Source of the DNA: Photobacterium sp. TLY01
GTDB lineage: Bacteria; Pseudomonadota; Gammaproteobacteria; Enterobacterales; Vibrionaceae
Assembly (NCBI RefSeq): GCF_021432065.1
Contig: NZ_CP090364.1
Coordinates: 3,300,601 to 3,364,600, forward strand
Direction of reading: 5' to 3'
Length of the DNA: 64,000 bases
Both the position numbers and the translations under genes were made by a program. Positions 43,040 to 61,137 of this stretch are shown here, piece by piece (positions within the stretch are counted from its first letter, which is position 1; the number at the start of each line of letters is the position of its first letter). The notes beneath the pieces were generated by a model that searched no databases, was not told the origin of the DNA, and saw nothing but the letters and a program-made list of their open reading frames with translations.

Positions 43040-43480
43040 TTAAAGGAAGTTTTTCCAGCCGTCCAGCCAGATTTCAGCCGGGTCTTCCGGTACAGGATCC
43101 TGAGAAACATCGATATCGAGCCGATCACCGAGACGCTGAGCGCCCAAATCGGCCAGCAGTTGATCCAGCTCTTTGCCTGCCTGGCAGAAAGTGTCGTAAC
43201 TGCTGTCGCCAATGGCCACCACACCGTATTTCAGCGCGCCGAGGTCGGGCTGCTGATCCTTCAGCTGGTTGACAAAAGGCTGAATATTATCGGGAAATTC
43301 GCCTGCACCATGGGTTGAGCAAATCAGCAGCCAGATATGGTCTGTATTCAGCTCATTCAGGGCGGCCTGGTTGAGGGTTTCGGTGTCGTGACCGGCGTCG
43401 GTGAGCAGTTCGGCCAAATGATCGGCGACATATTCTGCGCCGCCGAGAGTGCTGCCGGTGATTAGGGTAATGGTCGCCAT
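43040..43480 (-). CDS. mioC: Flavodoxin-family FMN-binding protein MioC
   Basis: Flavodoxin-like protein of 146 residues adjoining oriC; in E. coli its transcription runs into oriC. The FMN phosphate loop is in TLITGSTLGGAEYVADHLAELL near the N-terminus, followed by LLICSTHGAGEFPDNIQPF and VVAIGDSSYDTFCQAGKELDQLL. The frame extends to 43621, but the ATG at 43480 follows AGAGGCCCCT and gives the family start. It normally follows mnmE; the island now separates them. Confidence 0.95.
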   Translation of the reverse strand: MATITLITGSTLGGAEYVADHLAELLTDAGHDTETLNQAALNELNTDHIWLLICSTHGAGEFPDNIQPFVNQLKDQQPDLGALKYGVVAIGDSSYDTFCQAGKELDQLLADLGAQRLGDRLDIDVSQDPVPEDPAEIWLDGWKNFL

Positions 43481-43857
43481 AGGGGCCTCTTTATATAGAC
43501 AATTGTCAGAATGGCTGAATTGTACTCTGAGTTGGCGATAAGAAAACCCCGGGAAAAGTGTGTCTGCGGTCTGAATTTTAGACTTGCTGTGCCGCTGCGC
43601 GAAGTACGCAGACACAGCCATCTTCCGGACCAGGGGGCATGCGGAGTGATAATCGTTGAGTGAAAAATATATCTACTTAAATTTCAGTAGATTAAATGCT
43701 TTGTTCACAGGCAATCCCAAGGATCCTCTGTGCTTGATCATCCTCATAATGGCAGTTATCAACGGCTTTTGATCGTTGCCGGCCCCCAGGATCTTGTACT
43801 CGCAGCACTGGTCACGGTTGCTGAACAGGATCACCGTACTGAGCATTGCTGTGAGGT
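43481..43857. other. Remnant mnmE-mioC spacer, no gene seen
   Basis: Host sequence between mioC and the stranded mnmE terminator. It contains five GATC sites between 43722 and 43832, consistent with being close to oriC. The only longer frame here is judged spurious. Confidence 0.5.
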
Positions 43858-43908: not shown

Positions 43909-43926
43909 TTATTTTCCGATACAGAA
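43909..43926 (-). repeat. Distal attachment core (duplicated mnmE 3' end)
   Basis: On the minus strand TTCTGTATCGGAAAATAA, which reads FCIGK-stop, the last codons of mnmE. It matches the core at 61120-61137 at 16 of 18 positions, the two differences being synonymous (GGA/GGG, AAA/AAG). It marks the end of the island away from the integrase. Confidence 0.9.
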
Positions 43927-44073: not shown

Positions 44074-44931
44074 TCAGCTTTCACTATCTTTCTCTTCAGC
44101 AACGACAAACAAGAGAGGTTTTCCACTCTCTAGCAGGTAAGGGGCGATGATCGTTTCCTTACCAAAGTGAATCTTCCCTTTTGCTATATAAATAAAGATC
44201 CAATCGGGCAACTTACTACTAATAGCAGCATAAAGTGCATCAGAAGGGATGTCACTATTCCTGCCTGGCGAAATTCTAAATCTCTGGTAGTAGACGTGAT
44301 GGTTGGATTCAAATGCAAAACTTTCCTGTCCATCGTTGACGAAAGACGGTGACATCGTTCTTCTCGGTTCGAAAACTTCTGCGGTGATATAGCATAGGTC
44401 CTGGTTTGTCATACCAGCTTGGTATTTTGGACATTGGTAGTCTGCACTATGGAAGTAGAACTCTATCTTTTGTTCTGAATTGCCATTAGTGCGCTCATAG
44501 TGAATAGATTGTTCTTGAAGCACGGTTTCGATGGCTGCGGTGAAGTGGTAGAGCAACTTTTGCTGTGCGTCTCGAACGGATGTCGCTTCTTGTATAGGCA
44601 TCCAAGCAATAATGCTGTTTCGTGAAGCGGTATCAGGCTGTTCCAGCAATGACGTTAGCAAACCAAGGCTTAGTCATTCACTTAACTCAAGTCCCGCGCC
44701 TACTGAAGACGTGAGTAACAATGTATTTCCTGCGGCAGCTTTCGCGAGCTTAAATGCCTCAAAGTCTCTCATTGGAATGACTTTGTCTTCTGTTTGGTAG
44801 AGCCCACCTGCATGAGCAATGTTATGAGCACGGCAGTGGCTGTTTTCATATTGGATAGGAGTTGATGTAGAGGCACATCCAGTGAGCAAAATTAGTAACG
44901 ATAACCGAGTGAACCTAGCCTTCGGTTTCAT
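44074..44931 (-). pseudogene. Lipoprotein gene interrupted by one in-frame TGA
   Basis: The first part (44931 to 44677) encodes MKPKARFTRLSLLILLTGCAS..., a lipoprotein signal with lipobox LLTGC, preceded by AAGGAAA. It stops at TGA 44676-44674. The same frame then stays open for 199 more codons to 44074 (LSLGLLTSLLEQPDTASRNS..., ending EEKDSES), with no shift. The intact product would be about 285 residues, and a TGG-to-TGA change restores GAGLELSEWLSLGLL. Function unrecognised. A start inside the second half (TTG 44661) would lack any export signal. Translation of a short lipoprotein (85 residues) remains possible. Confidence 0.7.
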
Positions 44932-44975
44932 GAGAAATTTCCTTGTCAAAACAATTTGATTTTGCAGTTATTTAT

Positions 44976-45133: not shown

Positions 45134-45517
45134 TCAATCACTCTTCCAGCCATAAGCATTACCTGCGATATCAAAGTGCCTGTTCTTCATCAATAAACCA
45201 GTGCTTGGGTTGATACGTCGAGGCGTTCGCTTGGATCTAGATGAGTAATTGGTCGGAATGTTCTGTTGGTGCAAATGCCAGACATGAATGAAGAAATAGG
45301 TGAGGGCGGCGGCGGTGGCGAACAGACAGTTCAAATAAAGGATTACCAACCAAAGTAACAACGCGATGTACTTATTTGTGTGGATAACACCTAAAGGCTT
45401 ATGTAGCCAAATAACGCTTGGGAAGGCCATCAACATCACTCCCCAGCTTTGATATACAGTTACTAACGCACCAAGACAAAAAACGCAAAAGAGTGCGAAC
45501 TTTTTTAGTGTTTCCAT
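45134..45517 (-). CDS. Island membrane protein, function unknown
   Basis: From the ATG at 45517 (GGAGACTAAG upstream) the product has 127 residues: METLKKFALFCVFCLGALVT, then a second hydrophobic span near YIALLLWLVILYLNCLFATAAALTYFFIHVW, and a basic C-terminal tail (SSRSKRTPRRINP). The frame opens at 45610, but that extension runs through the operators and promoter. It is divergent from the XRE regulator; two CTTAG-N5-CTAAG operators lie between them. No family recognised. Confidence 0.65.
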   Translation of the reverse strand: METLKKFALFCVFCLGALVTVYQSWGVMLMAFPSVIWLHKPLGVIHTNKYIALLLWLVILYLNCLFATAAALTYFFIHVWHLHQQNIPTNYSSRSKRTPRRINPSTGLLMKNRHFDIAGNAYGWKSD

Positions 45518-45535: not shown

Positions 45536-45550
45536 CTTAGTTATCCTAAG
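45536..45550. promoter_or_regulatory. Operator 1, CTTAG-N5-CTAAG
   Basis: CTTAGTTATCCTAAG, a palindrome in the divergent region. A TATAAT (45559-45564, plus strand) follows it toward the regulator gene, so the operator covers the expected -35. On the minus strand TATACT (45554-45549) points at the membrane-protein gene. Confidence 0.7.
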
Positions 45551-45569
45551 TATACAGGTATAATTAAAA

Positions 45570-45584
45570 CTTAGAAAATCTAAG
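45570..45584. promoter_or_regulatory. Operator 2, CTTAG-N5-CTAAG
   Basis: CTTAGAAAATCTAAG, centred 34 bp from operator 1, about three helical turns. It lies just upstream of the XRE gene and overlaps the -35 position of the divergent promoter. Confidence 0.7.
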
Positions 45585-45610
45585 CATCGTAGGTTGATGA
45601 TGATTCTCAC

Positions 45611-45931
45611 TTGTCTAAAACAAATCCATTTCCACAGCGCCTTAAACAGGCAAGAAATCGCGTTGGTATCAGCCAGAGGGAGCTTGGTATCCGTTTGGGT
45701 ATGGACCCAAGTTCAGCGAGTGGCCGTATGAATCATTATGAAAAAGGGCGTCATATGCCCGATATCGGTACGCTACAAAAGCTTGCTCAGGAGCTTGGTG
45801 TGCCTGTTGCGTTTTTCTTTTCAGATTCCGACAGCTCAGCAGAACTGGCGTGTTTGATTGAAAAGCTCAGTGAAACTAAAAAGCAGGCGCTTATTGAGCA
45901 GATCAGGCAGGAACTCGATAACATCGACTAG
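45611..45931 (+). CDS. XRE-family island regulator
   Basis: HTH protein of 106 residues: FPQRLKQARNRVGISQRELGIRLG begins a Cro/CI-type domain, followed by YEKGRHMPDIGTLQKLAQELGVPVAFFF and an acidic helical tail. Start is TTG at 45611; no ribosome site is obvious and no ATG is in frame nearby, so the mRNA may have a very short leader. Two palindromic operators lie directly upstream and a third lies beyond its 3' end, so it is the likely repressor of itself and of two small membrane genes. Confidence 0.85.
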   Translation: MSKTNPFPQRLKQARNRVGISQRELGIRLGMDPSSASGRMNHYEKGRHMPDIGTLQKLAQELGVPVAFFFSDSDSSAELACLIEKLSETKKQALIEQIRQELDNID

Positions 45932-45939
45932 TAATAAAG

Positions 45940-46026
45940 CTATCGCTGTCGTCCTGAATACCAAAATACCCCACCGACTGCGGCGACGGTCAGTAATAAA
46001 CCGCCCAGCCAAATCCAAAGTTCCAT
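45940..46026 (-). CDS. 28-residue single-span membrane peptide
   Basis: Short frame converging on the XRE gene. CAGGAGGTGAAT directly precedes the ATG at 46026, one of the best ribosome sites in the island. The product starts MELWIWLGGLLLTVAAVGGV and ends FWYSGRQR: one membrane helix with a basic C-terminus, as in small regulatory peptides or type I toxin-like peptides. Operator 3 (46063-46077) lies 37 bp upstream, so it is probably controlled by the same XRE protein. Too short for standard gene callers; function unknown. Confidence 0.6.
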   Translation of the reverse strand: MELWIWLGGLLLTVAAVGGVFWYSGRQR

Positions 46027-46062
46027 ATTCACCTCCTGTAAGTATCTTCTATCTCTATTTAG

Positions 46063-46077
46063 CTTAGCTTTCCTAAG
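46063..46077. promoter_or_regulatory. Operator 3, CTTAG-N5-CTAAG
   Basis: CTTAGCTTTCCTAAG, upstream of the 28-codon gene on the minus strand. It overlaps the last codons and stop of the 46073 gene. Confidence 0.6.
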
Positions 46078-46774
46078 CATGAATTTCATCGAAAGCATGC
46101 GTCATCTGAGAAAAAACCGTCACAACCAACTTGTGTTCAGCTAAGGATGCAATTTGAAAGTAAAGATTGCCTGTAGGGTTGGCCCAAATTTCATGTTGCT
46201 CGCTTCCGTAACGGAGTAGCTTTTGAAAGCGTGTTCTTGATGTCAAAGTCAGTCTTTCTAGATTTGGGTGGGAGAGTTGCTTCTGTAAGCTGTGCCATGG
46301 ATTGCGAATATCACCTTGCCTGTGCCTTTGTTGGTAGCGTTGCATTGCATGGTTGCTGATGGCGATGGTGCCAAGTTTTGCAACCTCAAACGTCGGATAG
46401 GGTGAAGCATAAGGCGTAATAATGTCTTTTGTTTCTGGATGTGTGATATCAACAATCTCGTCAGAATAAAGTTTGATACCGCATAGACGGTTGGACAAAA
46501 ACAGTGCGGTTGTTTTGAGAGCTTCATTCTTGGCCGCTAAAATGGTTTCTTTGGTTAGGCTGAGTGCGAGACCTTTACCGCTGTTTGGTACGCGCCCGAA
46601 TACCTGTTTGTCGAGTAGTAAGAACCTTGCCGCCGTTAACTCTGCGATAGCGCACCGGAACTCACTTTGAGCAATTTGAACCGTAACGATACCGTGATTG
46701 TTCAACCCCGTGAACCACGCGACTTCGACGCTTTCAGCATTGATTTTTTCAACCTGAACTTTCAATCTCATCAC
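46073..46774 (-). CDS. Island protein of 233 residues, function unknown
   Basis: Starts at GTG 46774 or the adjacent ATG 46771, after GAGGAG. The C-terminal half contains ISNHAMQRYQQRHRQGD and then a run that looks like a small mixed alpha/beta domain (RFQKLLRYGSEQHEIWANP... LVVTVFSQ). I do not recognise a family. It follows the 46879 gene on the same strand with a gap of 104 bp. Operator 3 overlaps its stop codon. Confidence 0.6.
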   Translation of the reverse strand: MMRLKVQVEKINAESVEVAWFTGLNNHGIVTVQIAQSEFRCAIAELTAARFLLLDKQVFGRVPNSGKGLALSLTKETILAAKNEALKTTALFLSNRLCGIKLYSDEIVDITHPETKDIITPYASPYPTFEVAKLGTIAISNHAMQRYQQRHRQGDIRNPWHSLQKQLSHPNLERLTLTSRTRFQKLLRYGSEQHEIWANPTGNLYFQIASLAEHKLVVTVFSQMTHAFDEIHA

Positions 46775-46878: not shown

Positions 46879-47388
46879 CTAAATTTGCAGTTTTTTTATC
46901 GCTCGCATCGTTTTTCTCACCTGGCTAGACAGCTCTCTTATTGGATTCACACGCTGTTCCAGTCGGTTGATCTGGTCTAGCAAATGAAGATAGAGAGGGA
47001 TTTCCCAATCCATTGCATGTGAAAAACGGCGTAACACCCCATTTGAAACTTCTTGGGTTTCAAGCTCAGGATACCAACCTCCACGAGCGATCATGCGGTG
47101 CCATTTGATTTTAGGTAAGCGCTGTTCACTCGTAACAATGAACTCATAGCGAAATGGGTACTCGACGTTGTACTCTTTTGACAAGGCTTCCTTTAGTTTA
47201 TCCATTTGTTTCTTCAGTTCTTTTGCTGCTGCCATCAAGTGCTTTGACTCTGTCGCAACGAAATCAGATAAACCATCGATTCTTTCTGGCAAAGGAACTG
47301 GCTCAGGCAGCTTCAACTTGAGATTACTTAACTCAATTTCCTTGCTTAGTTGCACGATGCCGACATTGGGTGTGGTTTTCTTAGCCAT
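46879..47388 (-). CDS. Helical island protein coupled to the MobI-like gene
   Basis: 169 residues from ATG 47388 (TGGAGAAGCAGA upstream), whose ATGGCTAA overlaps the upstream gene's stop by 8 bp, so the two are translationally coupled. Long charged helices dominate (FVATESKHLMAAAKELKKQM, INRLEQRVNPIRELSSQVRK), with an aromatic segment in between (KWHRMIARGGWYPELETQ). No family recognised. By position it may be an accessory factor of the mobilisation protein; that is inferred. Confidence 0.65.
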   Translation of the reverse strand: MAKKTTPNVGIVQLSKEIELSNLKLKLPEPVPLPERIDGLSDFVATESKHLMAAAKELKKQMDKLKEALSKEYNVEYPFRYEFIVTSEQRLPKIKWHRMIARGGWYPELETQEVSNGVLRRFSHAMDWEIPLYLHLLDQINRLEQRVNPIRELSSQVRKTMRAIKKLQI

Positions 47389-47959
47389 TCTGCTTCTCCA
47401 TTTTTTGAAAGTGTTCACGAAGCTTGTTAAGTCGTTTTGTACAAATTTGCGCTTTTTGTTTGATGGTGAGGATTTCATGCCGCACTTCGCGGATCAGTGC
47501 GAAGGCATCTTCTGTGTACTCAATAAGATCGGATTCCCATTCCGAGTTTGCTTTTGAAAATCGGCCAGGTGGGTAACGAAAGCCTTTGCCTTTCGATAAA
47601 TGCTTAGAACGAACACGTTGTTCTTTGTTGTTTCTCAGTGACATTTGATTGGTACTGAGATACCAGTTGTAATACCAAGCCGCTTCAAAGCGATGGTTGC
47701 GAACCCGAACACGACAGCCGTAGCGGCCAGGTGAGGTTTCCTTATGGGCTCTATGGGTTCGCCAAAACTGGTTAGCGTAGTAACTGGCTAAAAACTCCAG
47801 TAGATAGGGTTCCTGCATTGCAAAGTTTTCGATATCAGCAAGGGCTTTGAGCGATTGTGATAGAGCGAGTTCAAAGCATTCTTGCTCATTTTCGGTGTGT
47901 CGTTGCTGGGATCGTTGATGCCATTGATAGGCGGCGGAATGTTCACTTAATACTGTCAT
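47381..47959 (-). CDS. MobI-like conjugative mobilisation protein
   Basis: 192 residues from ATG 47959 (AAGGAGCCACC upstream). The core ANQFWRTHRAHKETSPGRYG with CRVRVRNHRFEAAWYYNWY, followed by GFRYPPGRFSKANSEWESDL and IEYTEDAFALIREVR, resembles the MobI family of SXT/R391 elements and related mobilisable islands, which acts at oriT. This is recalled similarity, not a search result. A 550-bp noncoding region upstream is where oriT would be expected. Confidence 0.5.
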   Translation of the reverse strand: MTVLSEHSAAYQWHQRSQQRHTENEQECFELALSQSLKALADIENFAMQEPYLLEFLASYYANQFWRTHRAHKETSPGRYGCRVRVRNHRFEAAWYYNWYLSTNQMSLRNNKEQRVRSKHLSKGKGFRYPPGRFSKANSEWESDLIEYTEDAFALIREVRHEILTIKQKAQICTKRLNKLREHFQKMEKQNG

Positions 47960-48516
47960 GGTGGCTCCTTGATTATTTTGCTCAAGGTAGCGCAAACACA
48001 TTCTTACTTACGCATCTGTAATTGCCCTTTTGGGGTGCATAATTTTCCTCGTGTCCCACCGCTGATTGGCAAGCATGGCAGCAATTCCTCTCCTGGGACC
48101 TATCCCTGTACTTTCCAGATACCTATCTTTGTGGGACGTAGCTAAGGATTATTTTCGTTGCTTTATTGTTTTGGCGGGGATGTAGGGAGTCGTAGTCCAG
48201 TCATTGTGGGACCTGAGCATCCATTTTTTATTCTGATGGGGTTGTGACGGTAACTTTCTAGATTATTGTGGGATTTTGCCTGTTTGTAGTGATTGAGGGC
48301 TGATGTACTTTCACATTTGAAAGCCCTAGATAGCAGTTCAACTAGTAAAATGGTGGTATTCTCTTATTAGTGTTAGGAATCATTGTAATATCAATATCAA
48401 TATCATAATCAAAACAGAAATTCTAAATTACCAACGTTTTTGGTCTCCAGTAAGTGATTAAAGATATTCATGCAAGGCTGTGGATCGTGGTAAGCAATGC
48501 GTAGGAAGTGATTAAT
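47960..48516. other. Noncoding region, candidate oriT and promoters
   Basis: No gene seen in 557 bp between the divergent MobI-like and STAND genes. The motif TGGGAC occurs at 48054-48059 (inverted), 48094, 48132 and 48207, with TGGGAT at 48269. Three tandem AATATC units lie at 48387-48404, and part of a 21-bp sequence shared with 53159-53179 is at 48308-48328. It is upstream of mobI, the oriT position in SXT-type elements. Confidence 0.4.
48308..48328 (+). repeat. 21-bp repeat copy 1, upstream of the STAND gene
   Basis: Identical at 20 of 21 positions to 53159-53179. Contains CTTTCA - CATT - TGAAAG followed by CCCTA, with GAGGGCT at 48295-48301 able to pair with AGCCCT. Confidence 0.7.
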
Positions 48517-51500
48517 ATGTCAATAATGGTTAGTCAGGAGTTTATTGAGCCATCGGATATTGAGCAGGAAATAGCAGGGCAACAACAGACTAGTGTTATT
48601 GAAGTTGGCGCTCAATCTCTGCCCTATCAAAATTTAGACCCAGCGCAGTTCGAATGCTTACTTTGGGATCTGTTTCGCAGCGGTTTTGAAACAGATCTTG
48701 GGCATGACTATACGCGACTGATGCTCACAGGAGCAGATCAGGGGCGCGATGTATGGATGACCTCGCACGAAATCCCGGTCGGCTTAGTTCAGTGCAAACG
48801 CTATAGCGAGAAGATTACCCTAAGAGAAACAATAAAAGAGATCGTTAAGTTTCTTCTTTACGCAGACCTGAATAGGAAATTGTTACCAAAACCCGACTGT
48901 TTCACTTATTACTTAGCTCTTAGTTGTGACCCAACGGGTGAGGTTGATGAGTTTTTCAACACACCAAGTTCATGGCTGAGAGATAACCCTGAAGAAATCG
49001 AGACAGCAGCCAAAGCTGTAATTGCTAAGTATGCTTCTCTAAAGATGGTTGATCTAAGCTGTGCAATGTTACCTCTACGAGAGCGATTTCAAGCATTGAA
49101 CTATAGGTTGTTAAGGCCTCATGAACTGGATAGAGCTCTTAGTATCCATACAGATGTAAGAGAGCGGCACTTTAGGATTCCGGTTCATTCACTGCAACTG
49201 TCCAGAGCTCCGTTTTCTGGTAATACTACCGCTGTTCCAAACGACTTGGCTCAAGCTAGCCGACATCTTGCCTGTTGGCAAAAGACTATTGAAAATCGAT
49301 TTATAGAACGACCTGAGCTACAAGATTTGCTTCAACTGGTTCATTCAAATGAGAGTAGTTGTCATATTCTGACTGGCGTATCAGGCAGTGGGAAATCGTC
49401 ACTACTATCTGCTCTTTATGAACGCTTACCTGACGACGATTTTTCTGTTCTGGCAATTAAAGCGGATGAGTTAGATGCCAAGGTTAACGATCTGACTGAG
49501 TTGGCAGAAAGTCTCAAACTAAGTGGAAATCTTACCAATACTTTGCTTGGGGCTTCACAAACCAAACCAGTGGTATTGCTAATTGATCAAATGGATGCAG
49601 TTAGTGAGGTCATGGATCAAAGCTCAAACCGTTTTAGAGTGCTTGTAGACCTGGTTGTTTCTCTAAAAAGTCGGTTTGAGAGCATTAAGTTAAGCGGTAA
49701 AAAGCCCGTTCATATCATCGTGACTTCTCGCCCCTTTGAGGCTAGTTTTGATACTCGTTTTACTCAGTTGGAAGCAAAGCATATTGAACTGCCATTGCCT
49801 GAAAAGTCAGCTGTTGAAGCACTTTTAACTGACTTGGGGATAGAAATATCATCGATCCCGCCATCTATGTATCCAGCAATTCAAGTTCCTTTCGCTTTAA
49901 ATCTGTATGTAAGCCTTATTAAGGCTGGAGAACACCCTAGTCAGATTACGTCAAAGAATTTGTTGCAGCGATGGCTGGATAAGAAACTGACAGACAGAGC
50001 AAGTCGAGCTGAACAGATGCTTTTTTTAAAGCGTCTGGCTCAGGATATGGTGAGTAACGAAGTACTCAGGCGTCCTGTTGATGCTTACCAGTTTGAGAGC
50101 GGCCACGTTATTGCAGCGCTAGAGGCGGCTGGTATTTTGGTGCGGTATGATAAGAATATAGGCTTTAGCCACCAAGCCTGGCTTGATGATTTTCAGGCTC
50201 AGAGCTTTAGTAATTCAGATGATTTGTGTAGTTTCGTCTACCAAAAACAAGATGGCCTTTTTTCTAGAAGCACGATTTTGCGAGGACTTGAATCTTTGAG
50301 GGAAAGAGATCCTATGGGGTATCAGTCCACTCTTGACTCATTACTCTTCGGTGGTCGATCACGACGTCATATCCTTCACCTGCTAGTAGATATCCTGGCT
50401 ATTTCACCAACCCCAAGTGCATCCGATGCTGAACGAGTTATTCGATTGATTAATGATGACGTAGTTTTAGCTAAAAGAGCAATATCTAAAGTAGCGGCAA
50501 ACTGGAGCAATTGGCGAGATCATTTGATAGCTAGCATACCAGATATAATGGAAAAAGCTGAATATAGTAGTCACGTGGTGGAATGGTTGATCGCTGAGTC
50601 TAAACACGATGAAGAGCATGTCATATCACTACTTAACAGGCTTTGGTTTGAGCCAACTTATGATGAGATGGTCCTCAATGTATTATGGCGATCCTCGGCA
50701 AACTCAGAGGCCGCTTTGCGGCTTGTTGAGCAGTTAATATCCAGAAATAATGTTGATTCCTCCTATGTAGGAAGATATCTATCCGGTTTATGTAAGAAAG
50801 GGCACGGCAAGCCAGCGTTGACTATTCTTGTTGCTTGGTTGAACTCGGTCGATGACAAAACAGCATTAGAACAACACATCTACGGCTTCGAGAAACTTGC
50901 TAGAAAGCATTCTCTGGAATGTATCGAAGCGATATTGCCATGGGTAGTGCAGCTAATAGAAAAAGAAAACAGCAGCGCAAAACTTGGTTACTCTTACCGT
51001 CGTACAATCAGGTCTGTTATTGAGTGGAATGAACAGTCGGATAATAGCTACCTTTTAGGTGGTCTTCGTCTTGCGATAGCTGTTTCAGCCAAAAATACTC
51101 CAAACGAGTTGCTTCATTTAGTCAGGCCATACATGGCCGTTGATATTGATGATGTACAGGTCATTGTTGCATCAGCTCTATTGTCTAATGGAAAACATTA
51201 TGCGCAGGACATATATGACTATCTGCTTGGTGACCGTTGTCGCTTACAGTTAGGTTCTGGTTACTTCAAAGATGAAGATAATGTCGGTTATACATTTAAT
51301 GGCAGTATTACCCTGGAACTGATAGAAGAAGCGGTCTCATTTTGGGATGATAAGCAAGTTGCTGGTATTAGAGATGCTATTGAGCAGTTCAGTTCGCATC
51401 AGCCAAGCGCTGATTATCCTGCTGATATGAAGCTAAGGTGTATGCATTACAGCGAGGGTTACCGACTGGCATTACTTTCGAGGTTGCCATCAAAAGCTTT

Positions 51501-53073
51501 GTCCCCGAGAAGAAATAGACAGGTATCAGAAAGACATATAAGGCTAGAGCCTGCTATTGGTGAGCGTTCCAGAGGAGTTGGCATGGCTTCTGTCGTTAGG
51601 TCACCAATGTCCTCAGAACAGATGGGGAAAGCCCGTAAAGAAGATATATTAAATTTGCTCAATGAGATAACTGATCAGCATAAGCGTCATGGTGGGGGAC
51701 GGCGTTGGCTTTCTGGTGGAGTAATTGAGTTGTCTAGATCTTTCGGTTCGTATGCTGCCAACAACCCTGAGCAGGCAATAGAGCTTATTACGGATGAGTT
51801 CCGTCAGGGCTTGCACGAATATGCGGCCTCAGAGGCAATTGAGAACTTAGCGAAGTCTGAAGTTGTAGCTACAAAGGAAATAGTGAATCTTATCATCCAA
51901 CTCAATCAGCGTGGGTTTAACTCGAAAGAGTGGATAACCGGCGTTGCTAGAGCATTCCAGGCAATAGCAGGACGAGAATATGGATTAGATGATCAGTGTA
52001 TTCAAATACTTTTGGGTTACTTAAATTCAAATTTAGATACAGGGTTCGAACTTGAGGGTGATCGCACGGAGGCTGAACCAGGACAGGCACTGCTTTTTGG
52101 TCATGATAACGGCTTTCGTACAGTTCCTGCTGGAAATTACACTATCATGTCTGCCATACATTACGGTTTGCTTTGTCGCCAGCCCCCGAGCTGCGATGCT
52201 TGGGCTGATGTCTTATTGCAGTTTTTGGATACATCACAAGACACTGAAACTTGGAAGTGTCTATTGCTGTTTCAATTTCGCCATTTACGTTGGGCTAGTC
52301 AAGATAAGTGTAATGAGTTGGTTCATCGGCTGGTTGATGAACATACCCATGTATTTTCGTTACCAACAACTGCTATGACAATCTGGGAATTAGCTGATGT
52401 ATTACAGCCTGAAACACTGCTAAAAATTGTTAGATACTGGCTATCTTCGAAATCATCAGCCTTGATTCAAGTTGCTGGAGAGTTTATTACAGGACAACTG
52501 ATCATTGGTAACGAGAATAATGAACTACATCAGATTTGGAACCAGCATTTCAGTCTAAAAGAACCTCATTTCATGCGTGGCATTATCCATGCGGCATGTT
52601 CTGGTTGGCAGGAAACGGGAAAAGTTCGAGGCGATTCCCACAAAATGCTTATGGCGTGCCTTCAGGATGACACAAAGGAGCTGGTCACCGCATTAAACAG
52701 TTTGTTTTCATATAGCAAGCAGATGCCAAATGATGAACTGACTTATGAGGTAGTTGATTGGCTTGCTGGTCATCCTGAAGCTGTATCTGAGTTAAACAGG
52801 CACTGTCTGATTAGCAACCTGGTCAAAATTAATTTTTCTCCTAAACTTCAGCTCTCAATACTTGATATTGCTAAGAACTTAGTAATATCGCAGCAGAAAG
52901 AAAATCCAGAGCGCCAATATTTTGAACACAGCGAAGAGTTGGTTCAGCTCGCAGTTACTTTACAGAGAGGAGCTGGAGCGATAAAAGAAGGAGCAATAAC
53001 GTTGTACGAAACCTTATTGGATGCAGGTAACTATCAAGCAGAAGAAGCAGCACAAGAAGCTTTGAGGCTTTAA
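48517..53073 (+). CDS. Mrr-type nuclease / STAND NTPase, putative antiphage effector
   Basis: Protein of 1518 residues from ATG 48517 (GGAAG at 8 nt; a GTG at 48508 is also open). Residues 40-200 form a PD-(D/E)xK nuclease of Mrr type: FECLLWDLF with Glu46, GADQGRDVWM with Asp78, and VGLVQCKRY with Gln92/Lys94. A NACHT/STAND-like NTPase follows: Walker A TGVSGSGKSSLL at 286-297, Walker B PVVLLIDQMD near 351-360, and VTSRPFE at 402. The last 1000 residues are helical, repeat-like, without cysteine-rich or membrane segments. This nuclease-STAND-repeat layout is that of Avs-type prokaryotic sensors, in which phage-protein binding triggers DNA cutting. Function here is inferred. Composition is AT-rich. 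Confidence 0.75.
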   Translation: MSIMVSQEFIEPSDIEQEIAGQQQTSVIEVGAQSLPYQNLDPAQFECLLWDLFRSGFETDLGHDYTRLMLTGADQGRDVWMTSHEIPVGLVQCKRYSEKITLRETIKEIVKFLLYADLNRKLLPKPDCFTYYLALSCDPTGEVDEFFNTPSSWLRDNPEEIETAAKAVIAKYASLKMVDLSCAMLPLRERFQALNYRLLRPHELDRALSIHTDVRERHFRIPVHSLQLSRAPFSGNTTAVPNDLAQASRHLACWQKTIENRFIERPELQDLLQLVHSNESSCHILTGVSGSGKSSLLSALYERLPDDDFSVLAIKADELDAKVNDLTELAESLKLSGNLTNTLLGASQTKPVVLLIDQMDAVSEVMDQSSNRFRVLVDLVVSLKSRFESIKLSGKKPVHIIVTSRPFEASFDTRFTQLEAKHIELPLPEKSAVEALLTDLGIEISSIPPSMYPAIQVPFALNLYVSLIKAGEHPSQITSKNLLQRWLDKKLTDRASRAEQMLFLKRLAQDMVSNEVLRRPVDAYQFESGHVIAALEAAGILVRYDKNIGFSHQAWLDDFQAQSFSNSDDLCSFVYQKQDGLFSRSTILRGLESLRERDPMGYQSTLDSLLFGGRSRRHILHLLVDILAISPTPSASDAERVIRLINDDVVLAKRAISKVAANWSNWRDHLIASIPDIMEKAEYSSHVVEWLIAESKHDEEHVISLLNRLWFEPTYDEMVLNVLWRSSANSEAALRLVEQLISRNNVDSSYVGRYLSGLCKKGHGKPALTILVAWLNSVDDKTALEQHIYGFEKLARKHSLECIEAILPWVVQLIEKENSSAKLGYSYRRTIRSVIEWNEQSDNSYLLGGLRLAIAVSAKNTPNELLHLVRPYMAVDIDDVQVIVASALLSNGKHYAQDIYDYLLGDRCRLQLGSGYFKDEDNVGYTFNGSITLELIEEAVSFWDDKQVAGIRDAIEQFSSHQPSADYPADMKLRCMHYSEGYRLALLSRLPSKALSPRRNRQVSERHIRLEPAIGERSRGVGMASVVRSPMSSEQMGKARKEDILNLLNEITDQHKRHGGGRRWLSGGVIELSRSFGSYAANNPEQAIELITDEFRQGLHEYAASEAIENLAKSEVVATKEIVNLIIQLNQRGFNSKEWITGVARAFQAIAGREYGLDDQCIQILLGYLNSNLDTGFELEGDRTEAEPGQALLFGHDNGFRTVPAGNYTIMSAIHYGLLCRQPPSCDAWADVLLQFLDTSQDTETWKCLLLFQFRHLRWASQDKCNELVHRLVDEHTHVFSLPTTAMTIWELADVLQPETLLKIVRYWLSSKSSALIQVAGEFITGQLIIGNENNELHQIWNQHFSLKEPHFMRGIIHAACSGWQETGKVRGDSHKMLMACLQDDTKELVTALNSLFSYSKQMPNDELTYEVVDWLAGHPEAVSELNRHCLISNLVKINFSPKLQLSILDIAKNLVISQQKENPERQYFEHSEELVQLAVTLQRGAGAIKEGAITLYETLLDAGNYQAEEAAQEALRL

Positions 53074-53228: not shown

Positions 53229-55211
53229 GTGGCATCGAACATGTTTCATATTCAAGATCAAATGGATTTACAGGCTCTGTCTGAGTCTGCGGAGTTAGAG
53301 TTTAAGCTTGCCCAGGGTAAGGATGGAAAGGGAAAGCTCCCAGATGATTTTTGGCCTACCTATAGTGCGATGGCTAACAGTCGTGGTGGCTATGTGGTAT
53401 TGGGTGTTCGCGAAAGAAAGGGCAAATTGACACTTGCGGGTATAGAAGATATTGAAACAGTTCGTAAGCAACTTTTTGATATTGCTGGTAATAACGCCAA
53501 GGTGAACATTAACTTGTTGACTAATGACAGTGTGCAAGCTGTGACGGTAGAAGGCAAGCAACTGCTGGTTATCGCGATCCCGGCTGCTCGTAGAGAACAA
53601 AAACCTGTCTATCTGAAGAATCAGCCAATGAAAGAGACCTTTGTGCGTTTACATGAGGGGGATCACCGCTGTAGCGAAGAACAAGTTAAACGTATGATGG
53701 CTGAGCAGGTTGAAAGCAGTAGAGACGATAAAATCCTTAAAGGGTTTAATTTTAGTGATATTGATCCTGATAGTCTCAGCGCATACAAGAATTTGTTTGC
53801 TGCGGCTAAGCCTCAGCACCCATGGTTGGAACTCGATCTATTCGAGATGTTTAAGAAGATTGGAGGATGGCGAAAAGATCGCCAGGCTGGTGAGGAGGGA
53901 ATTACGTTAGCAGGCGTCCTCATGTTTGGAACATGGGAAGCGATTCAAGAAGCCGCTCCAAACTATTTTGTTGACTATCGAGAGAGAGATGAAGCCAATA
54001 CGCAGCGCTGGATTGATCGTGTTTACCCTGATGGATCTTGGTCTGGAAATGTATTCGACTTTTATCGACGTACATACAGAAAATTAATCACGGACTTAAA
54101 AGTTCCTTTCGAGCTGCAAGAAGGAATACGGCTGGATGAATCCAAGGCTCATGAGGCAATTCGTGAAGCTTTGGTTAATACTCTTGTTCATGCTGATTAC
54201 ACTGGACGAAGCTCAATACTCATCGTTAAACGGCCGGATCTGTTTGGTTTTCGAAATCCAGGATTGATGCGTATACCACCGGAAATTGCAGTCAAAGGTG
54301 GAGAAAGCGATTGCCGTAACCGACGCATGCACCAGATGTTTTTGATGATCGGTGCTGGTGAGCGAGCTGGCTCAGGTATACCGAAGATTTACAGTGGTTG
54401 GGAGGCTGCTAAATGGCGAACTCCAAAACTGTATGAGAAGCAATCGCCCTCTGAACAGACACTTTTAGAGCTATCAACAGCAAGTTTAATTCCTAATGAA
54501 GTTACAGAGCTACTTGGTTCTTTATTCGGTGATCGTTTTTATACGCTTGATGAACTTGAGCAGATGATTGTCGCCACGGCGGCTATTGAGGGATGGGTTA
54601 ACCATGAACGGGCATGCCAGTTAACAAGCAAGCACTCCCGTGACGTAACATTGACCTTGCCTAGGCTAGTAGATAAAGGCTTTTTGGTTGCAAGTGGTGT
54701 AAAGAAAGATAAGTCCTATAGTTTACCTGGTATGGAACCCCCTTCTCCCGAAGATGTTTTCTCAAATGCGTTAACCCCTCTTGACAACTTAACGCATAAC
54801 GTCGACAACTTAACGCATAACGATACCAACTTAACGCATAGTGGCTTGGTAGAGAATGTTACTAAAGGCGAGGAAAGGGACTCAAGAGGCCGTTTTATAA
54901 GTGAAAAAATCGATAAGCCATTTGTTGATGAGCTAAGCGTATTGACTGAAGAGTTCCGTTTGGAGCTTAACGCATTAGGTTCTCAAGCTAGAGAGCAGCG
55001 TCGCTTGGATACTGATACAATGAAGCAACTGATAATCGATCTTTGCAAAGGACATTATGTATCAGTTGCGGTGCTTGAGGTTCTGTTGGATCGTAGAGCA
55101 CAAAGCTTACGCCAAAACTATCTGAAACCAATGGTATCTACTGGGGAGCTTAAAATGGCCTTTCCTCATAAACCTAATTCACCAATGCAGGGTTATACGA
55201 CTTCGGAGTAG
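53229..55211 (+). CDS. AlbA_2/Schlafen-type and HATPase domain protein
   Basis: Protein of 660 residues from GTG 53229 (ATG 53241 is also possible; no clear ribosome site). Residues 15-145 match the AlbA_2 (Schlafen/AAA_4) domain: ESAELEFKLAQG, NSRGGYVVLGVRE, TFVRLHEGDHRCSEEQV. Residues 300-390 show the GHKL-type HATPase_c_4 domain: EAIREALVNTLVHADY and MIGAGERAGSGIPKI. A C-terminal winged-helix part follows, split by a NLTHN tandem repeat. Such proteins bind nucleic acid or act as ATP-dependent regulators, often in defence regions. It follows the STAND gene by 155 bp, with a palindrome between. Confidence 0.8.
   Translation: MASNMFHIQDQMDLQALSESAELEFKLAQGKDGKGKLPDDFWPTYSAMANSRGGYVVLGVRERKGKLTLAGIEDIETVRKQLFDIAGNNAKVNINLLTNDSVQAVTVEGKQLLVIAIPAARREQKPVYLKNQPMKETFVRLHEGDHRCSEEQVKRMMAEQVESSRDDKILKGFNFSDIDPDSLSAYKNLFAAAKPQHPWLELDLFEMFKKIGGWRKDRQAGEEGITLAGVLMFGTWEAIQEAAPNYFVDYRERDEANTQRWIDRVYPDGSWSGNVFDFYRRTYRKLITDLKVPFELQEGIRLDESKAHEAIREALVNTLVHADYTGRSSILIVKRPDLFGFRNPGLMRIPPEIAVKGGESDCRNRRMHQMFLMIGAGERAGSGIPKIYSGWEAAKWRTPKLYEKQSPSEQTLLELSTASLIPNEVTELLGSLFGDRFYTLDELEQMIVATAAIEGWVNHERACQLTSKHSRDVTLTLPRLVDKGFLVASGVKKDKSYSLPGMEPPSPEDVFSNALTPLDNLTHNVDNLTHNDTNLTHSGLVENVTKGEERDSRGRFISEKIDKPFVDELSVLTEEFRLELNALGSQAREQRRLDTDTMKQLIIDLCKGHYVSVAVLEVLLDRRAQSLRQNYLKPMVSTGELKMAFPHKPNSPMQGYTTSE
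54783..54845 (+). repeat. In-frame 21-bp tandem repeat (three units)
   Basis: Three units of 21 bp encode DNLTHNV, DNLTHND and TNLTHSG in the linker between the HATPase region and the C-terminal domain of the AlbA/HATPase protein. The first two units are nearly identical, so slippage could change the linker length. Confidence 0.85.
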
Positions 55212-55405: not shown

Positions 55406-55597
55406 ATGACCGCACAAAAACAATCAAATCAGCTATTAAGCTATCAAGAAGTTTGCAAACTAACGCAACTATCTCAAGCGACGATTCGCCGCTATGTAAA
55501 AAGCGGTTCTTTTCCTTCTCCAGTGAATTTATCGCCTGGCTCCCGAGCTGTGAGGTTTCGAGTTGAAGATGTGCAGAAGTGGCTTTTGAGCCTGTGA
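55406..55597 (+). CDS. AlpA-family regulator/excisionase
   Basis: Small 63-residue protein with a MerR-like HTH: LLSYQEVCKLTQLSQATIRRYVKSGSFPSPVNLSP followed by VRFRVEDVQKWLLS. This is the AlpA (phage regulatory) pattern, proteins that activate integrase genes or act as directionality factors in islands and satellites. The ATG at 55406 follows AGGAGTAGTT. It is the first gene of the replication/integration module, 12 bp before the DUF927 gene. Confidence 0.85.
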   Translation: MTAQKQSNQLLSYQEVCKLTQLSQATIRRYVKSGSFPSPVNLSPGSRAVRFRVEDVQKWLLSL

Positions 55598-55609
55598 TAG
55601 GGAGGTCAT

Positions 55610-57283
55610 ATGAAGTTTCGTCATCACCATGATCAACTACAGTATTTCTGCCGTGAGCGAGGTTGGCGTTCGTTGAGCTCTTCGGTCAAGGTTCTTGCTA
55701 GAACGCGTTCACCTGATCGGAAGTCAGGTTTCAGTGCTTGTATTGAAATCATCAATATGGACAAGCAGACGATTCGAATGATAGTGCCTGCCAGAAAGAT
55801 CATGGGAGGGACCAACTATCAATTAAGAGATGAATTATTCGATACCGGTTTCTGGCTGGAGCCTGAGCAAACTGCATGGAATATGGTCCAGCGCTATTTG
55901 CGGGAAGAGCTCAAAGCGGCGGACACGGCCTTTTGTGTTACAAGAACAGGTTGGCATGACAAGGTGTTCGTTACTCCGGAGAAAAGTTTCGGACGGTCAG
56001 ATGAGTCCTACTACTTTTCTGGTGGGATGGCAGACTCACTCTGTTTGGCAAAAGGGAGCTTAGCGGAATGGCAAAGCGAAGTCGGTTCTTTGTTGGTCGG
56101 CAATCCCTTGCTTATATTTTCTGTTGGCGTCGCTTTGGCCGCGCCGCTGCTCAAGCCAGTAGGGATGGAAAGTGCGGCATTCCATGTGATGGGGCCGTCT
56201 TCGTCGGGTAAGTCTGTCACATCGTTTGTCGCTGCGTCTGTTTATGCTGATAAGTCTTATATCAAGTCCTGGAAAACAACCGCTAACGGTATTGAGGCGG
56301 TTGCATCAGAGCATCATGACATGTTGCTTGTGTTAGATGAGCTAGGGTTGTGCTCGGCGGAAGAAGCCAGTTCTGCGGCTTATCAAATCGTCAACGGATG
56401 TGGGAAGCTGCGAGCCACCGAAACAGGCGGCCTGGCGAATATAGCCAATTGGCGAACGCTGACATTGAGTAATGGAGAGGTTGGCCTGACAGAGCTGATG
56501 GAGTCCTCTGGTTATCAAGTGAAAGCAGGTCAGCTCATTAGAGTAATCGAAATTCCTGCCGAAGAGCGCTTTGGCTGTTTTGCGGATCTACACCGCTTTT
56601 CCTCACCATCTCAGTTTGCTGAGCACTTAGAAAAGCAGACTCAAAAGTACTTTGGCACTTTGTTCACGGCGTGGATGACGCTTATTTCAGATAAGCCCGA
56701 TCTGGAAGTCGTTTTACAGCGTGAAATCGAAACGTTGAGGCAGCATTGGTCTAAAAGCAATTATTCCGGCCAGGTTCATCGGGTATTGAAGCGCTTTGTC
56801 CTTGTTGGTGTCGCGTTGTCTGTTGCGTCACGAAACCAGTTAGTGCCATGGTCTGAAGAAGAGTCACTGTATTCCGTATATAGCGTTTTTAGCCGCTGGT
56901 TATCTCACAGAGGGCACCAGCACAATCAAGAAACGTATGAGGTGTTAAGTGCTTTGAAGCAAGCGATTCGGTATTGGGAAAATAAGCTTCCTGAATTCTG
57001 CACGAGCAGACTTTCAAAGTTTGGTTACTGGCGGCAGGATGGTGATGATGTCCAGTGGCTTATCCACAAACAAGAGTTTATTAAGCAGCTTCGACTACGG
57101 CGTCAATATAAGAGTCAATTGAGCCCTTTAATTCATAAAGGGTGGTTTGAAACCAATGAAGATCGTAGAGGAACACTTCGGATTATCGAGAAGAAAAACG
57201 GTACTGAGTTTGATCATCGTTTTTTCGCTTTCTGGCCGGAAAAGATCCTCTCTGAATTGAAGGAGATGGGCATCGATGAATAA
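55610..57283 (+). CDS. DUF927-family P-loop ATPase (putative replication helicase)
   Basis: Protein of 557 residues, start ATG 55610 after GGGAGGTCAT. It has Walker A MGPSSSGKSVTSFVAASVY at 194-212, a preceding SVGVALAAPLLKPVGMESAAFHV, Walker B MLLVLDELGL at 238-247, and downstream LRATETGGLANIANWRTLTLSNGE. These are typical of DUF927 proteins, which are found in phages, satellites and integrative elements, usually as the replication helicase or primase-helicase. With the GATC/DnaA-box region, it suggests the island may replicate when excised. That is inferred. Confidence 0.8.
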   Translation: MKFRHHHDQLQYFCRERGWRSLSSSVKVLARTRSPDRKSGFSACIEIINMDKQTIRMIVPARKIMGGTNYQLRDELFDTGFWLEPEQTAWNMVQRYLREELKAADTAFCVTRTGWHDKVFVTPEKSFGRSDESYYFSGGMADSLCLAKGSLAEWQSEVGSLLVGNPLLIFSVGVALAAPLLKPVGMESAAFHVMGPSSSGKSVTSFVAASVYADKSYIKSWKTTANGIEAVASEHHDMLLVLDELGLCSAEEASSAAYQIVNGCGKLRATETGGLANIANWRTLTLSNGEVGLTELMESSGYQVKAGQLIRVIEIPAEERFGCFADLHRFSSPSQFAEHLEKQTQKYFGTLFTAWMTLISDKPDLEVVLQREIETLRQHWSKSNYSGQVHRVLKRFVLVGVALSVASRNQLVPWSEEESLYSVYSVFSRWLSHRGHQHNQETYEVLSALKQAIRYWENKLPEFCTSRLSKFGYWRQDGDDVQWLIHKQEFIKQLRLRRQYKSQLSPLIHKGWFETNEDRRGTLRIIEKKNGTEFDHRFFAFWPEKILSELKEMGIDE

Positions 57284-57342
57284 TATATTCCCAGTTTTCC
57301 CACTCTTCCCAGAGACATTCCAATGGGCGAGGAGGTGATGTG

Positions 57343-57678
57343 ATGACAACCAACGAGCAAGTTATTCTTCAGTCCATTCTCGCCAAGATTGACCGTGTTG
57401 AGCGCGCTATTCTGGAGCAGCGTTTGCAGCAACAAAAGGTGGAGTTGCTTGGAAAGGACATTCTAACCGTTGATGAATGTGCTGCTTTGCTGGGTTTATC
57501 AACCAATCAACTTTATAAGCTAACGAGCTCGGCAGAGATCCCTTACTTTAAGCTTGGCAAACACCTCCGATTTGAGCGTCAAGCAATCATGGATTGGGTT
57601 GAGGAGCAGCGCGTTTCATCTCGCCATGAGATAGAAAAAAGGGCAGCAAACTATGTCGCCACCACTTATCGTAAGTAA
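57343..57678 (+). CDS. Excisionase-family HTH protein
   Basis: 111 residues from ATG 57343 (GAGGAGGTGATGTG upstream; a GTG at 57340 is also open). The N-terminal helix LAKIDRVERAILEQRLQQQ is probably a coiled coil. A winged HTH of the excisionase type follows (ILTVDECAALLGLSTNQLYKLTSSAEIPYFKLGKHLRFERQAIMDW). It could be the recombination directionality factor or a replication regulator. It is followed by a terminator. Confidence 0.8.
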   Translation: MTTNEQVILQSILAKIDRVERAILEQRLQQQKVELLGKDILTVDECAALLGLSTNQLYKLTSSAEIPYFKLGKHLRFERQAIMDWVEEQRVSSRHEIEKRAANYVATTYRK

Positions 57679-57992: not shown

Positions 57993-58142
57993 ATGTACGA
58001 AAACCAGATTCAATGTGCAGAGTGCTATTGCACTCTGTACTTCACTGGAAAAAATGGACCATTAGGGGTTACAGGCGAACTTTGTTACGACTGTCAGAAG
58101 GAAAAAGACTCAATGGATGAATATGATGACGACGATGACTAA
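57993..58142 (+). CDS. 49-residue zinc-ribbon-like protein with acidic tail
   Basis: Small gene starting ATG 57993 with TTTGGAGTTAAT upstream. The product begins MYENQIQCAECYCTLYFTGK and has CYDCQKEK further on: two CxxC pairs likely to bind zinc. It ends in a run of five Asp. Its end overlaps the start of the 529-residue gene by 26 bp in another frame. Function unknown. Confidence 0.6.
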   Translation: MYENQIQCAECYCTLYFTGKNGPLGVTGELCYDCQKEKDSMDEYDDDDD

Positions 58143-59769: not shown

Positions 59770-60948
59770 TTAGGCCGCTGAATCCTTTCCAGAAGAAGCA
59801 AGAATATCAGGGAATGTCAGCATCGCTTCCATTCGGCGTTGTTCAATGATGTCAGCGTAGATCTCGGTTGTCTTGAGTTCGCTATGACCGAGCAATCGAG
59901 ACACTGAGTAAATATCCACACCTCTGCTTAGCTGGATAACGGCAAACGTATGGCGGCCACTGTGGAATGTAACGTGCTTACTTATCCCAGCAGCCAGAGC
60001 CCACCTAAGCAGTTCTACATTTATATAAGAAGAGTATTTCAGTCCCTTGAATACACGCTCGTGAGAGGCTTTAGGGTTGCCCAGAAGAGATTCTGCGAAC
60101 TTTGGTAGGTCGAGGTATTGGAGGCTTTTAGCATCGCCGTGAGAGAGTTTGACTTGGTCGAATATAATTCGCTTGTGATTATTAAATGTCTCTATTTCTG
60201 ACCAAGTAAGTCGATGGATATCGCACCAACGCATCCCCGTTGCACATGAGAACAAAAACGCACGTTTAAGGACTGGGTAGCGACATTCTGTGTGAGCTAA
60301 AGCGTTGACCTCATCCAATGTTAGATAAACACGCTTAGTCGTTTTCGCTTTGATACTGGTCACTTGTGAAAGCGGGTTATCACGAATAATACCTTCTCGA
60401 TGAGCTTCGTTGATCGCCGCGCGAACTTTATTGAAGTAGGAGCTTTGTGTGTTGCGAGATAACGCGGTATCACTTTTGGTTTTCGCTTCATTGGTCAGGT
60501 AATACTTAAACCCATCTAACCAGTCTTTATCCAGCTCATCAAAGCTAAGATCATGTTTCCCGCAGTAGAACAGCAGGTGCTTACGAGCTGAAAGCCAGAT
60601 CGAATGGTTGGAGGTTGAGGTGGTTTGTTCTTTGATGTCAATTTGCCGTTGAAAGTAATCAATGAAGCTAGCTGAACGTTTGGTTCGATCCTCAAAACCG
60701 TGCTTTTGGGATTGCCACTCAACCAGTCGTTTACTCTTAATAGTTTCGGCTAGGAGAAGGTGCTCTTTGTTATGTTTTCGCTGAGCTGGTGTTTTGGGTT
60801 TGTCATAGATAAACAGATCCAGCACTTCGTGTTCACGTTTTCGCTGACGAGATCCGTTTGATTTAGTGGTATAACCGTGGTCATAAATGAGACGCAATGT
60901 TCGCGTTCCATCTGCTTTAAGTGTCCGTTTTTCAATGAAAATTTTCAT
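59770..60948 (-). CDS. int: Tyrosine recombinase (island integrase)
   Basis: 392 residues from ATG 60948 (a TTG at 60960 is also open). The N-terminus, MKIFIEKRTLKADGTRTLRL, looks like an arm-binding domain, and a SAM-like core-binding domain follows (SFIDYFQRQIDIKEQT). Catalytic residues are Arg240 in CATGMRWCDIHRLTW, His329 and Arg332 in TFHSGRHTFAV, His355 in LLGHS and Tyr364 in TTEIYADI. The layout resembles Bacteroidetes-type integrases. The gene lies 170 bp inside the mnmE-side core and reads away from it, with arm-like boxes in its upstream region. Confidence 0.93.
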   Translation of the reverse strand: MKIFIEKRTLKADGTRTLRLIYDHGYTTKSNGSRQRKREHEVLDLFIYDKPKTPAQRKHNKEHLLLAETIKSKRLVEWQSQKHGFEDRTKRSASFIDYFQRQIDIKEQTTSTSNHSIWLSARKHLLFYCGKHDLSFDELDKDWLDGFKYYLTNEAKTKSDTALSRNTQSSYFNKVRAAINEAHREGIIRDNPLSQVTSIKAKTTKRVYLTLDEVNALAHTECRYPVLKRAFLFSCATGMRWCDIHRLTWSEIETFNNHKRIIFDQVKLSHGDAKSLQYLDLPKFAESLLGNPKASHERVFKGLKYSSYINVELLRWALAAGISKHVTFHSGRHTFAVIQLSRGVDIYSVSRLLGHSELKTTEIYADIIEQRRMEAMLTFPDILASSGKDSAA

Positions 60949-60952
60949 GTTT

Positions 60953-60971
60953 GTCCCCAATTGGTCCCCAA
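60953..60971 (-). repeat. Paired TTGGGGAC boxes, inverted (putative arm site next to int)
   Basis: On the minus strand two TTGGGGAC copies (60971-60964 and 60960-60953), 11 bp apart. They cover the ribosome-site region of the integrase gene, so binding could also control its expression. Confidence 0.6.
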
Positions 60972-61119: not shown

Positions 61120-61137
61120 TTACTTCCCGATACAGAA
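61120..61137 (-). repeat. Integrase-proximal attachment core in mnmE
   Basis: On the minus strand TTCTGTATCGGGAAGTAA, the last six codons of the current mnmE (FCIGK-stop). It matches the distal core at 16 of 18 positions and strongly resembles the known SGI1 attachment sequence in thdF/trmE. Confidence 0.9.

Follow-up and report, generated by a model that had tools for sequence, protein, structure and literature searches.

On a genomic island inserted at trmE, Photobacterium sp. TLY01 carries three copies of the palindrome CTTAG-N5-CTAAG, which are probably the operators of the small XRE-family protein encoded beside them. According to this reading, relatives of plasmid exclusion genes and a gene for a short membrane peptide would be switched on when the MobI-type island arrives in a cell and repressed while it resides there. 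The three-operator arrangement is real and conserved, and it belongs to a new combination: a controller of the type found with restriction-modification systems and in CRISPR-associated transposons (CASTs), relatives of both tiers of exclusion, a novel peptide and a mobilizable island. No description of such a controller together with exclusion relatives and the peptide was found in the literature searched, which mostly excludes subscription papers.

Exclusion by mobilizable islands has become known only recently, and for Sfx only (PMC11493245). A puzzle posed by such elements is how one that depends on a helper can keep plasmids out and yet not starve itself. The puzzle becomes testable here, where one dedicated switch lies beside relatives of both exclusion tiers, and the switch offers a possible explanation of how the island could block entry while the helper plasmid that it needs is not kept out permanently. 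The locus also points to a natural change of operator specificity within a class of controllers whose DNA complexes have been solved, and it extends the gene set known for MobI islands by a conserved membrane peptide of 28 residues.

The features of the window (that is, the whole 64-kb stretch of DNA that was analysed) are as follows.

43916..43926, unstranded: distal copy of the putative att core, CCGATACAGAA, read directly
44074..44949, minus strand: gene for an Sfx-like surface-exclusion lipoprotein, with an in-frame TGA at 44674-44676 that interrupts it
45134..45517, minus strand: Eex-like membrane protein, 127 aa, homologous to the traG-adjoining gene of IncC and pAQU1 plasmids
45536..45550, unstranded: operator 1, CTTAGTTATCCTAAG, XRE-distal and OL-like
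45549..45578, minus strand: divergent promoter (-35 TTTTCT, 18 bp, -10 TATACT at 45554-45549), predicted from the sequence and a 74-locus comparison
45570..45584, unstranded: operator 2, CTTAGAAAATCTAAG, XRE-proximal and OR-like
45611..45931, plus strand: XRE controller of the C.Csp231I/RtbC class, 106 aa, recognition helix ASGRMNHY, HTH_3 match at 5.3e-11
45940..46026, minus strand: 28-codon single-helix membrane peptide, MELWIWLGGLLLTVAAVGGVFWYSGRQR, with AGGAGG upstream
46063..46077, unstranded: operator 3, CTTAGCTTTCCTAAG, 36 bp 5' of the start codon of the peptide gene
46073..46774, minus strand: 233-aa open reading frame (ORF) upstream of the peptide gene, with relatives on 893 plasmids, mostly conjugative
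47381..48001, minus strand: MobI mobilization protein, PF19456 match at 1.3e-24
55406..57678, plus strand: HTH-DUF927-excisionase string (DUF927 8.9e-58; excisionase TIGR01764 5.6e-12)
59770..60960, minus strand: tyrosine integrase adjoining the mnmE end of the island, Phage_integrase match at 9.5e-20
61127..61137, unstranded: second copy of the putative att core, CCGATACAGAA, within the 3' end of mnmE

An earlier note on this DNA had placed three CTTAG-N5-CTAAG sites at 45536, 45570 and 46063, and had described a 106-codon XRE gene, a divergent membrane-protein gene and a convergent 28-codon gene. A scan of the window sequence found all three palindromes to be exact and at these positions, and the genes are as described. 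Operators 1 and 2 are separated by 19 bp. By dinucleotide shuffling, 0.01 exact sites are expected in the 64-kb window, and none of 100 shuffled sequences contained at least three. The same note had proposed a whole-genome scan, which located five such palindromes in the entire 4.7-Mb genome, including the three at the XRE locus. Of the other two, one forms the stem of a terminator-like hairpin and one lies in a hairpin upstream of an rsd-like gene; both look unrelated to the XRE regulon. A genome-wide regulon was therefore rejected, and the regulon, if real, appears to be confined to the island. When the tandem-site pattern was sought in 369 genomes of the class, it was found in the TLY01 genome only, and viral contigs yielded three matches, one of them with a relative of the XRE regulator.

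Two of the sites had been said to overlap promoters, and this agrees with the predicted promoter of the divergent gene, in which operator 1 overlaps the conserved -10 element TATACT and operator 2 covers the -35 region. The -35 element reads TTGTCT in most relatives versus TTTTCT in the window.

Conservation of the motif beside homologues was evaluated with a sample of 80 XRE homologues from public genomes. An exact operator pair with a 19-bp spacer lies upstream of the XRE gene in 74 of the 80, spanning several families. Nearly all of the remaining six have one exact site, and some have a one-base variant of the second. In every locus row displayed, the first site is followed directly by TATAC, which on the opposite strand is the divergent -10 element TATACT, and in the 74-locus comparison the second site holds the -35 region of the divergent gene. 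The genes surrounding the 80 loci vary: Hyp175 is present in 62 and is usually divergent to the regulator, tnsABC in about 30, Cas8f in seven and MobI in eight. The third site is retained in each of the eight islands that share the window's type. In a second type of MobI island (L017 and L018), the controller and operator pair are kept and the divergent gene differs; in L017 (5389-5877) it encodes 162 aa with an apparent signal peptide and a faint Rap1a-like match, and L018 has a matching place.

The XRE protein matches the PADLOC Control_protein family (3.5e-25) and, over residues 9-99, C.Csp231I structures (3LFP and related entries; 3.8e-19). Judged by homology, its membership in the C.Csp231I/RtbC class of controllers, which occurs in restriction-modification systems and CASTs, is well supported. 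Like C.Csp231I from Citrobacter sp. RFL231, which binds a pair of CTAAG-N5-CTTAG sites with an 18-bp gap (PMC4321490), it is a single-domain XRE protein of about 100 aa, with tandem 15-bp palindromes upstream of its own gene, each made of two 5-bp half-sites and an N5 spacer, and with 18-19 bp between sites. However, the half-site is CTTAG on the island rather than CTAAG, and the corresponding recognition residues are G/R/H rather than A/R/Q. The island also differs from the C.Csp231I locus in having a third operator and exclusion-gene relatives instead of adjoining restriction-modification genes, none of which were found among the scanned genes adjoining the XRE gene. On the grounds of its operators and these neighbours, the XRE protein is not a restriction-modification C protein in the strict sense.

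The altered helix positions fall among A33, R34 and Q37, residues that were mutated in C.Csp231I (PMC4824078). The helix ASGRMNHY occurs in all 80 homologues. Among homologues on plasmids, L086, L114 and L115 have the helix SARMNQ or SPRINQ and CTAAG-N5-CTTAG sites, and L120 has STRINR and a CTACG-N5-CGTAG box. A G..H helix is thus paired with CTTAG sites and an A/P..Q helix with CTAAG sites. In a tree of the regulators, the CTTAG proteins form one side of a supported branch (98/93), so the CTAAG/CTTAG switch counts as a single evolutionary change. Even as a single event, it ties this class of XRE protein to the CTTAG site. As a separate observation, the boxes and recognition residues of L086, L114, L115 and L120, taken together, outline a possible recognition code for the controller class.

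CASTs provide a second comparison. Xre regulators of Shewanella I-F3b CASTs are reported to cluster with C.Csp231I (PMC12452197), and RtbC/VpxR (VPA1391), which we compare by its published description, belongs to a type I-F3b CAST. The relatives of the island controller in Tn7-like and Cas8f loci share its helix and the operator pair with a divergent gene, and often have a third operator, at tniQ. Wherever tniQ was in range (nine loci), a further CTTAG operator precedes its start by 12-19 bp. These Tn7-like/CAST loci are L029, L049, L055, L056, L062, L070, L075, L080 and L087, and the operator has one mismatch in L055 and L056. The sites suggest that tniQ in these nine loci is under Xre control, and because of them we consider a remote third operator to be a recurrent design in this regulator family. 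The island itself is not an I-F3 CAST with tnsABC, tniQ and cas genes, and no Tns, TniQ or Cas families were detected among the scanned island proteins. Also unlike RtbC/VpxR, its regulators are in their own clades, and their putative targets are exclusion-gene relatives and the peptide.

The island extends from 43.9 to 61.1 kb (about 17.2 kb), between mioC (43040-43621) and mnmE/trmE (61120-62490). It shares with MGIVchHai6-like islands a mobI gene, a tyrosine integrase, the HTH-DUF927-xis string and insertion at the 3' end of mnmE (trmE), the site used by such islands, whose prototype is mobilized by IncC plasmids (PMC7449626). It differs from them in that their published description mentions no Xre controller with exclusion genes (PMC7449626). 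No prophage genes were found among the scanned island proteins. Three further island proteins, all encoded on the plus strand, are a 529-aa protein (58117-59706) without a match in Pfam, NCBIfam or PADLOC; a 1521-aa protein (48508-53073) that has an Mrr-type nuclease domain and a STAND/AAA NTPase and weakly matches the candidate defence families PDC-M54A, LmuA and Avs4; and a 660-aa AlbA_2/Schlafen-like protein with a RecG-C-like part (53229-55211), whose gene follows the candidate defence gene and precedes the DUF927-xis genes.

The first gene of the divergent unit encodes the Eex-like protein, which is homologous to the small membrane protein whose gene adjoins traG in the IncC/pAQU1 group. 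Its identity to the traG-adjoining protein of pAQU1 is only 23%. The comparison uses a hidden Markov model (HMM), built from four plasmid proteins only: the traG-adjoining proteins of an IncC plasmid and pAQU1, a pAQU1 paralogue and that paralogue's close counterpart. This model matches the window's protein at 1.1e-15, as against 0.085 for the next non-member and 0.68 for the best reversed decoy, and among 5036 ORFs its strong matches are the eight island proteins only. In addition, the relative in L011 finds the plasmid proteins at 7e-9 in a search against all plasmids. In the literature, eexC is paired with traG (PMC11493245), and from their position the traG-adjoining plasmid genes would be EexC and its equivalent on pAQU1. 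Modelling the Eex-like protein with AlphaFold from seven sequences gave two long helices and a pLDDT of 65, too weak for a fold search. The Pfam family TraS resembles only the tail of the divergent membrane protein (E 0.035) and was set aside in favour of the plasmid Eex comparison. Mem195, a membrane protein of L017, was likewise rejected as an Eex relative, with a clear match at its C-terminal tail only (HMM E 0.085).

The next gene on the same strand, absent from the earlier account, is Sfx-like. It is broken in the TLY01 genome by one nonsense codon, the TGA listed above. In related islands it reads through, with 291 aa in L006 and 282 aa in L011, and alignments with the copies in L007-L010 and L142 cover its full or nearly full length. 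The L006 copy is 33.6% identical to the IncC sfx beside traN (95% coverage, 3e-37), in agreement with the published Sfx (PMC11493245), and 58% identical to the pAQU1 gene. It carries an LTGCAS lipobox, so that both full-length homology and a lipoprotein signal are present in L006. The unit thus resembles EexC/Sfx of IncC plasmids and SfxAQU1 of pAQU1 in having a homologous membrane protein and lipoprotein. Unlike the plasmids, the island has the two genes adjacent and under one putative controller and has no transfer apparatus, and sfx of IncC is constitutive. As homologues, the two genes represent both tiers of conjugal exclusion, and we infer exclusion activity from this homology. Some integrative mobilizable elements (IMEs) are already known to have a functional Sfx (PMC11493245).

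The 28-codon gene in the window and its counterpart in L011 differ in 20 of 28 codons, with 16 synonymous and four non-synonymous changes. Because 16 of the 20 changed codons are silent, the peptide is very probably translated and under constraint. A relative in L017 and L018 (64% over 25 aa) is encoded directly after a 195-aa membrane ORF, in the string of genes running in the mobI direction, and has no CTTAG site. Weak matches in other genomes are mostly hydrophobic stretches within long reading frames. Operator 3 contains the stop codon of the 233-aa ORF. In L142, this ORF is missing and the N5 spacer is different, and both half-sites are nonetheless intact; operator 3 is retained across three sequence contexts. 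A promoter-like TAAAAT lies a short way upstream of operator 3 in L011 and L142, and the promoter of the window's peptide gene is not clear.

The proposed mechanism follows two studied relatives. In C.Csp231I, experiments established that the left site (OL) activates the controller's own promoter and the right site (OR) represses it (PMC4824078), and VpxR, the Xre regulator of a V. parahaemolyticus CAST, activates itself and represses a divergent gene in vivo (PMC12150760). By analogy with these proteins, we infer binding, the direction of control and its timing, namely self-activation followed by self-limitation, with repression of the divergent genes. Operators 1 and 2 would act as a left/right pair, through which a low dose would turn the controller's own promoter on and a high dose would turn it off. 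The controller bound there would block the divergent promoter, because the operators cover its -35 and -10 elements, and at operator 3 it would silence the 28-codon membrane peptide, which is encoded separately. Upon entry into a naive recipient, expression of the exclusion and peptide genes would last only while the controller is accumulating, giving a post-entry pulse of Eex, Sfx and peptide, and in the resident state these genes would be off. With the exclusion genes off, a helper plasmid could enter and mobilize the island. The appeal of this timing is that permanent exclusion of a helper plasmid would not serve an element that requires it. Repression at each operator cannot be assumed, because VpxR at its native dose produced no measurable repression of one promoter with a box (PMC12150760). 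More tentatively, the island may have recruited a timing controller of the restriction-modification/CAST type for two-tier Eex and Sfx exclusion during establishment only, along with a new 28-residue peptide, so that competitors would be blocked on arrival and the helper admitted later.

The timing could instead be flat. If the controller merely maintained itself homeostatically, the exclusion genes would be held at a constant low level in residence, there would be no entry pulse, and the island would permanently filter incoming plasmids. The authors who found IncC sfx to be constitutive propose that Sfx-bearing IMEs use Sfx as a standing defence (PMC11493245), and repression by VpxR is partial for some of its targets (PMC12150760). 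However, both operators overlap the core of the divergent promoter, and regulators of related I-F3 CASTs have been described as giving zygotic induction; a constant level is therefore somewhat unlikely, and we prefer a pulse on entry. For operator 3, peptide control can be compared with a transcriptional roadblock. The peptide and XRE genes are convergent and about 8 bp apart, and the genes in the mobI direction point toward XRE, so a protein bound at operator 3 might prevent antisense read-through into the XRE gene. Such a role is unlikely in view of the clear coding constraint on the peptide and the TAAAAT that precedes operator 3 in L142 and L011.

The note had read the locus as one regulator acting on itself and two membrane proteins, and had likened it to lysogeny switches or toxin control. 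The first part stands, insofar as sites lie by the regulator's own gene and by both membrane-protein genes; the comparisons do not. A small XRE regulator, divergent genes, palindromic operators and a mobile element do recall an SOS-inducible switch, in which DNA damage would inactivate the XRE protein and release the membrane proteins. This is very improbable, since the 106 residues comprise the HTH alone, with no LexA/CI peptidase domain, the closest families are restriction-modification and CAST controllers, and the setting is a MobI island rather than a prophage; the regulator is not a phage-type or SOS-cleavable repressor. Toxin control is at odds with the divergent genes, which are homologues of plasmid exclusion factors. 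The peptide itself, being short, hydrophobic and single-helix and having its own operator, could be a small toxin or growth brake restrained by the controller, with exclusion incidental. We consider this quite unlikely: searches of the peptide against Pfam, NCBIfam, PHROGs and plasmids gave no toxin-family match, and the gene order of the L017 type, without a CTTAG site, fits better with a role linked to mobilization.

Another possible link between C.Csp231I-like regulators and exclusion occurs on an IncX4 plasmid (L119, 734-1830), where the gene for such a regulator has as neighbours another XRE gene and one for an EexN lipoprotein.
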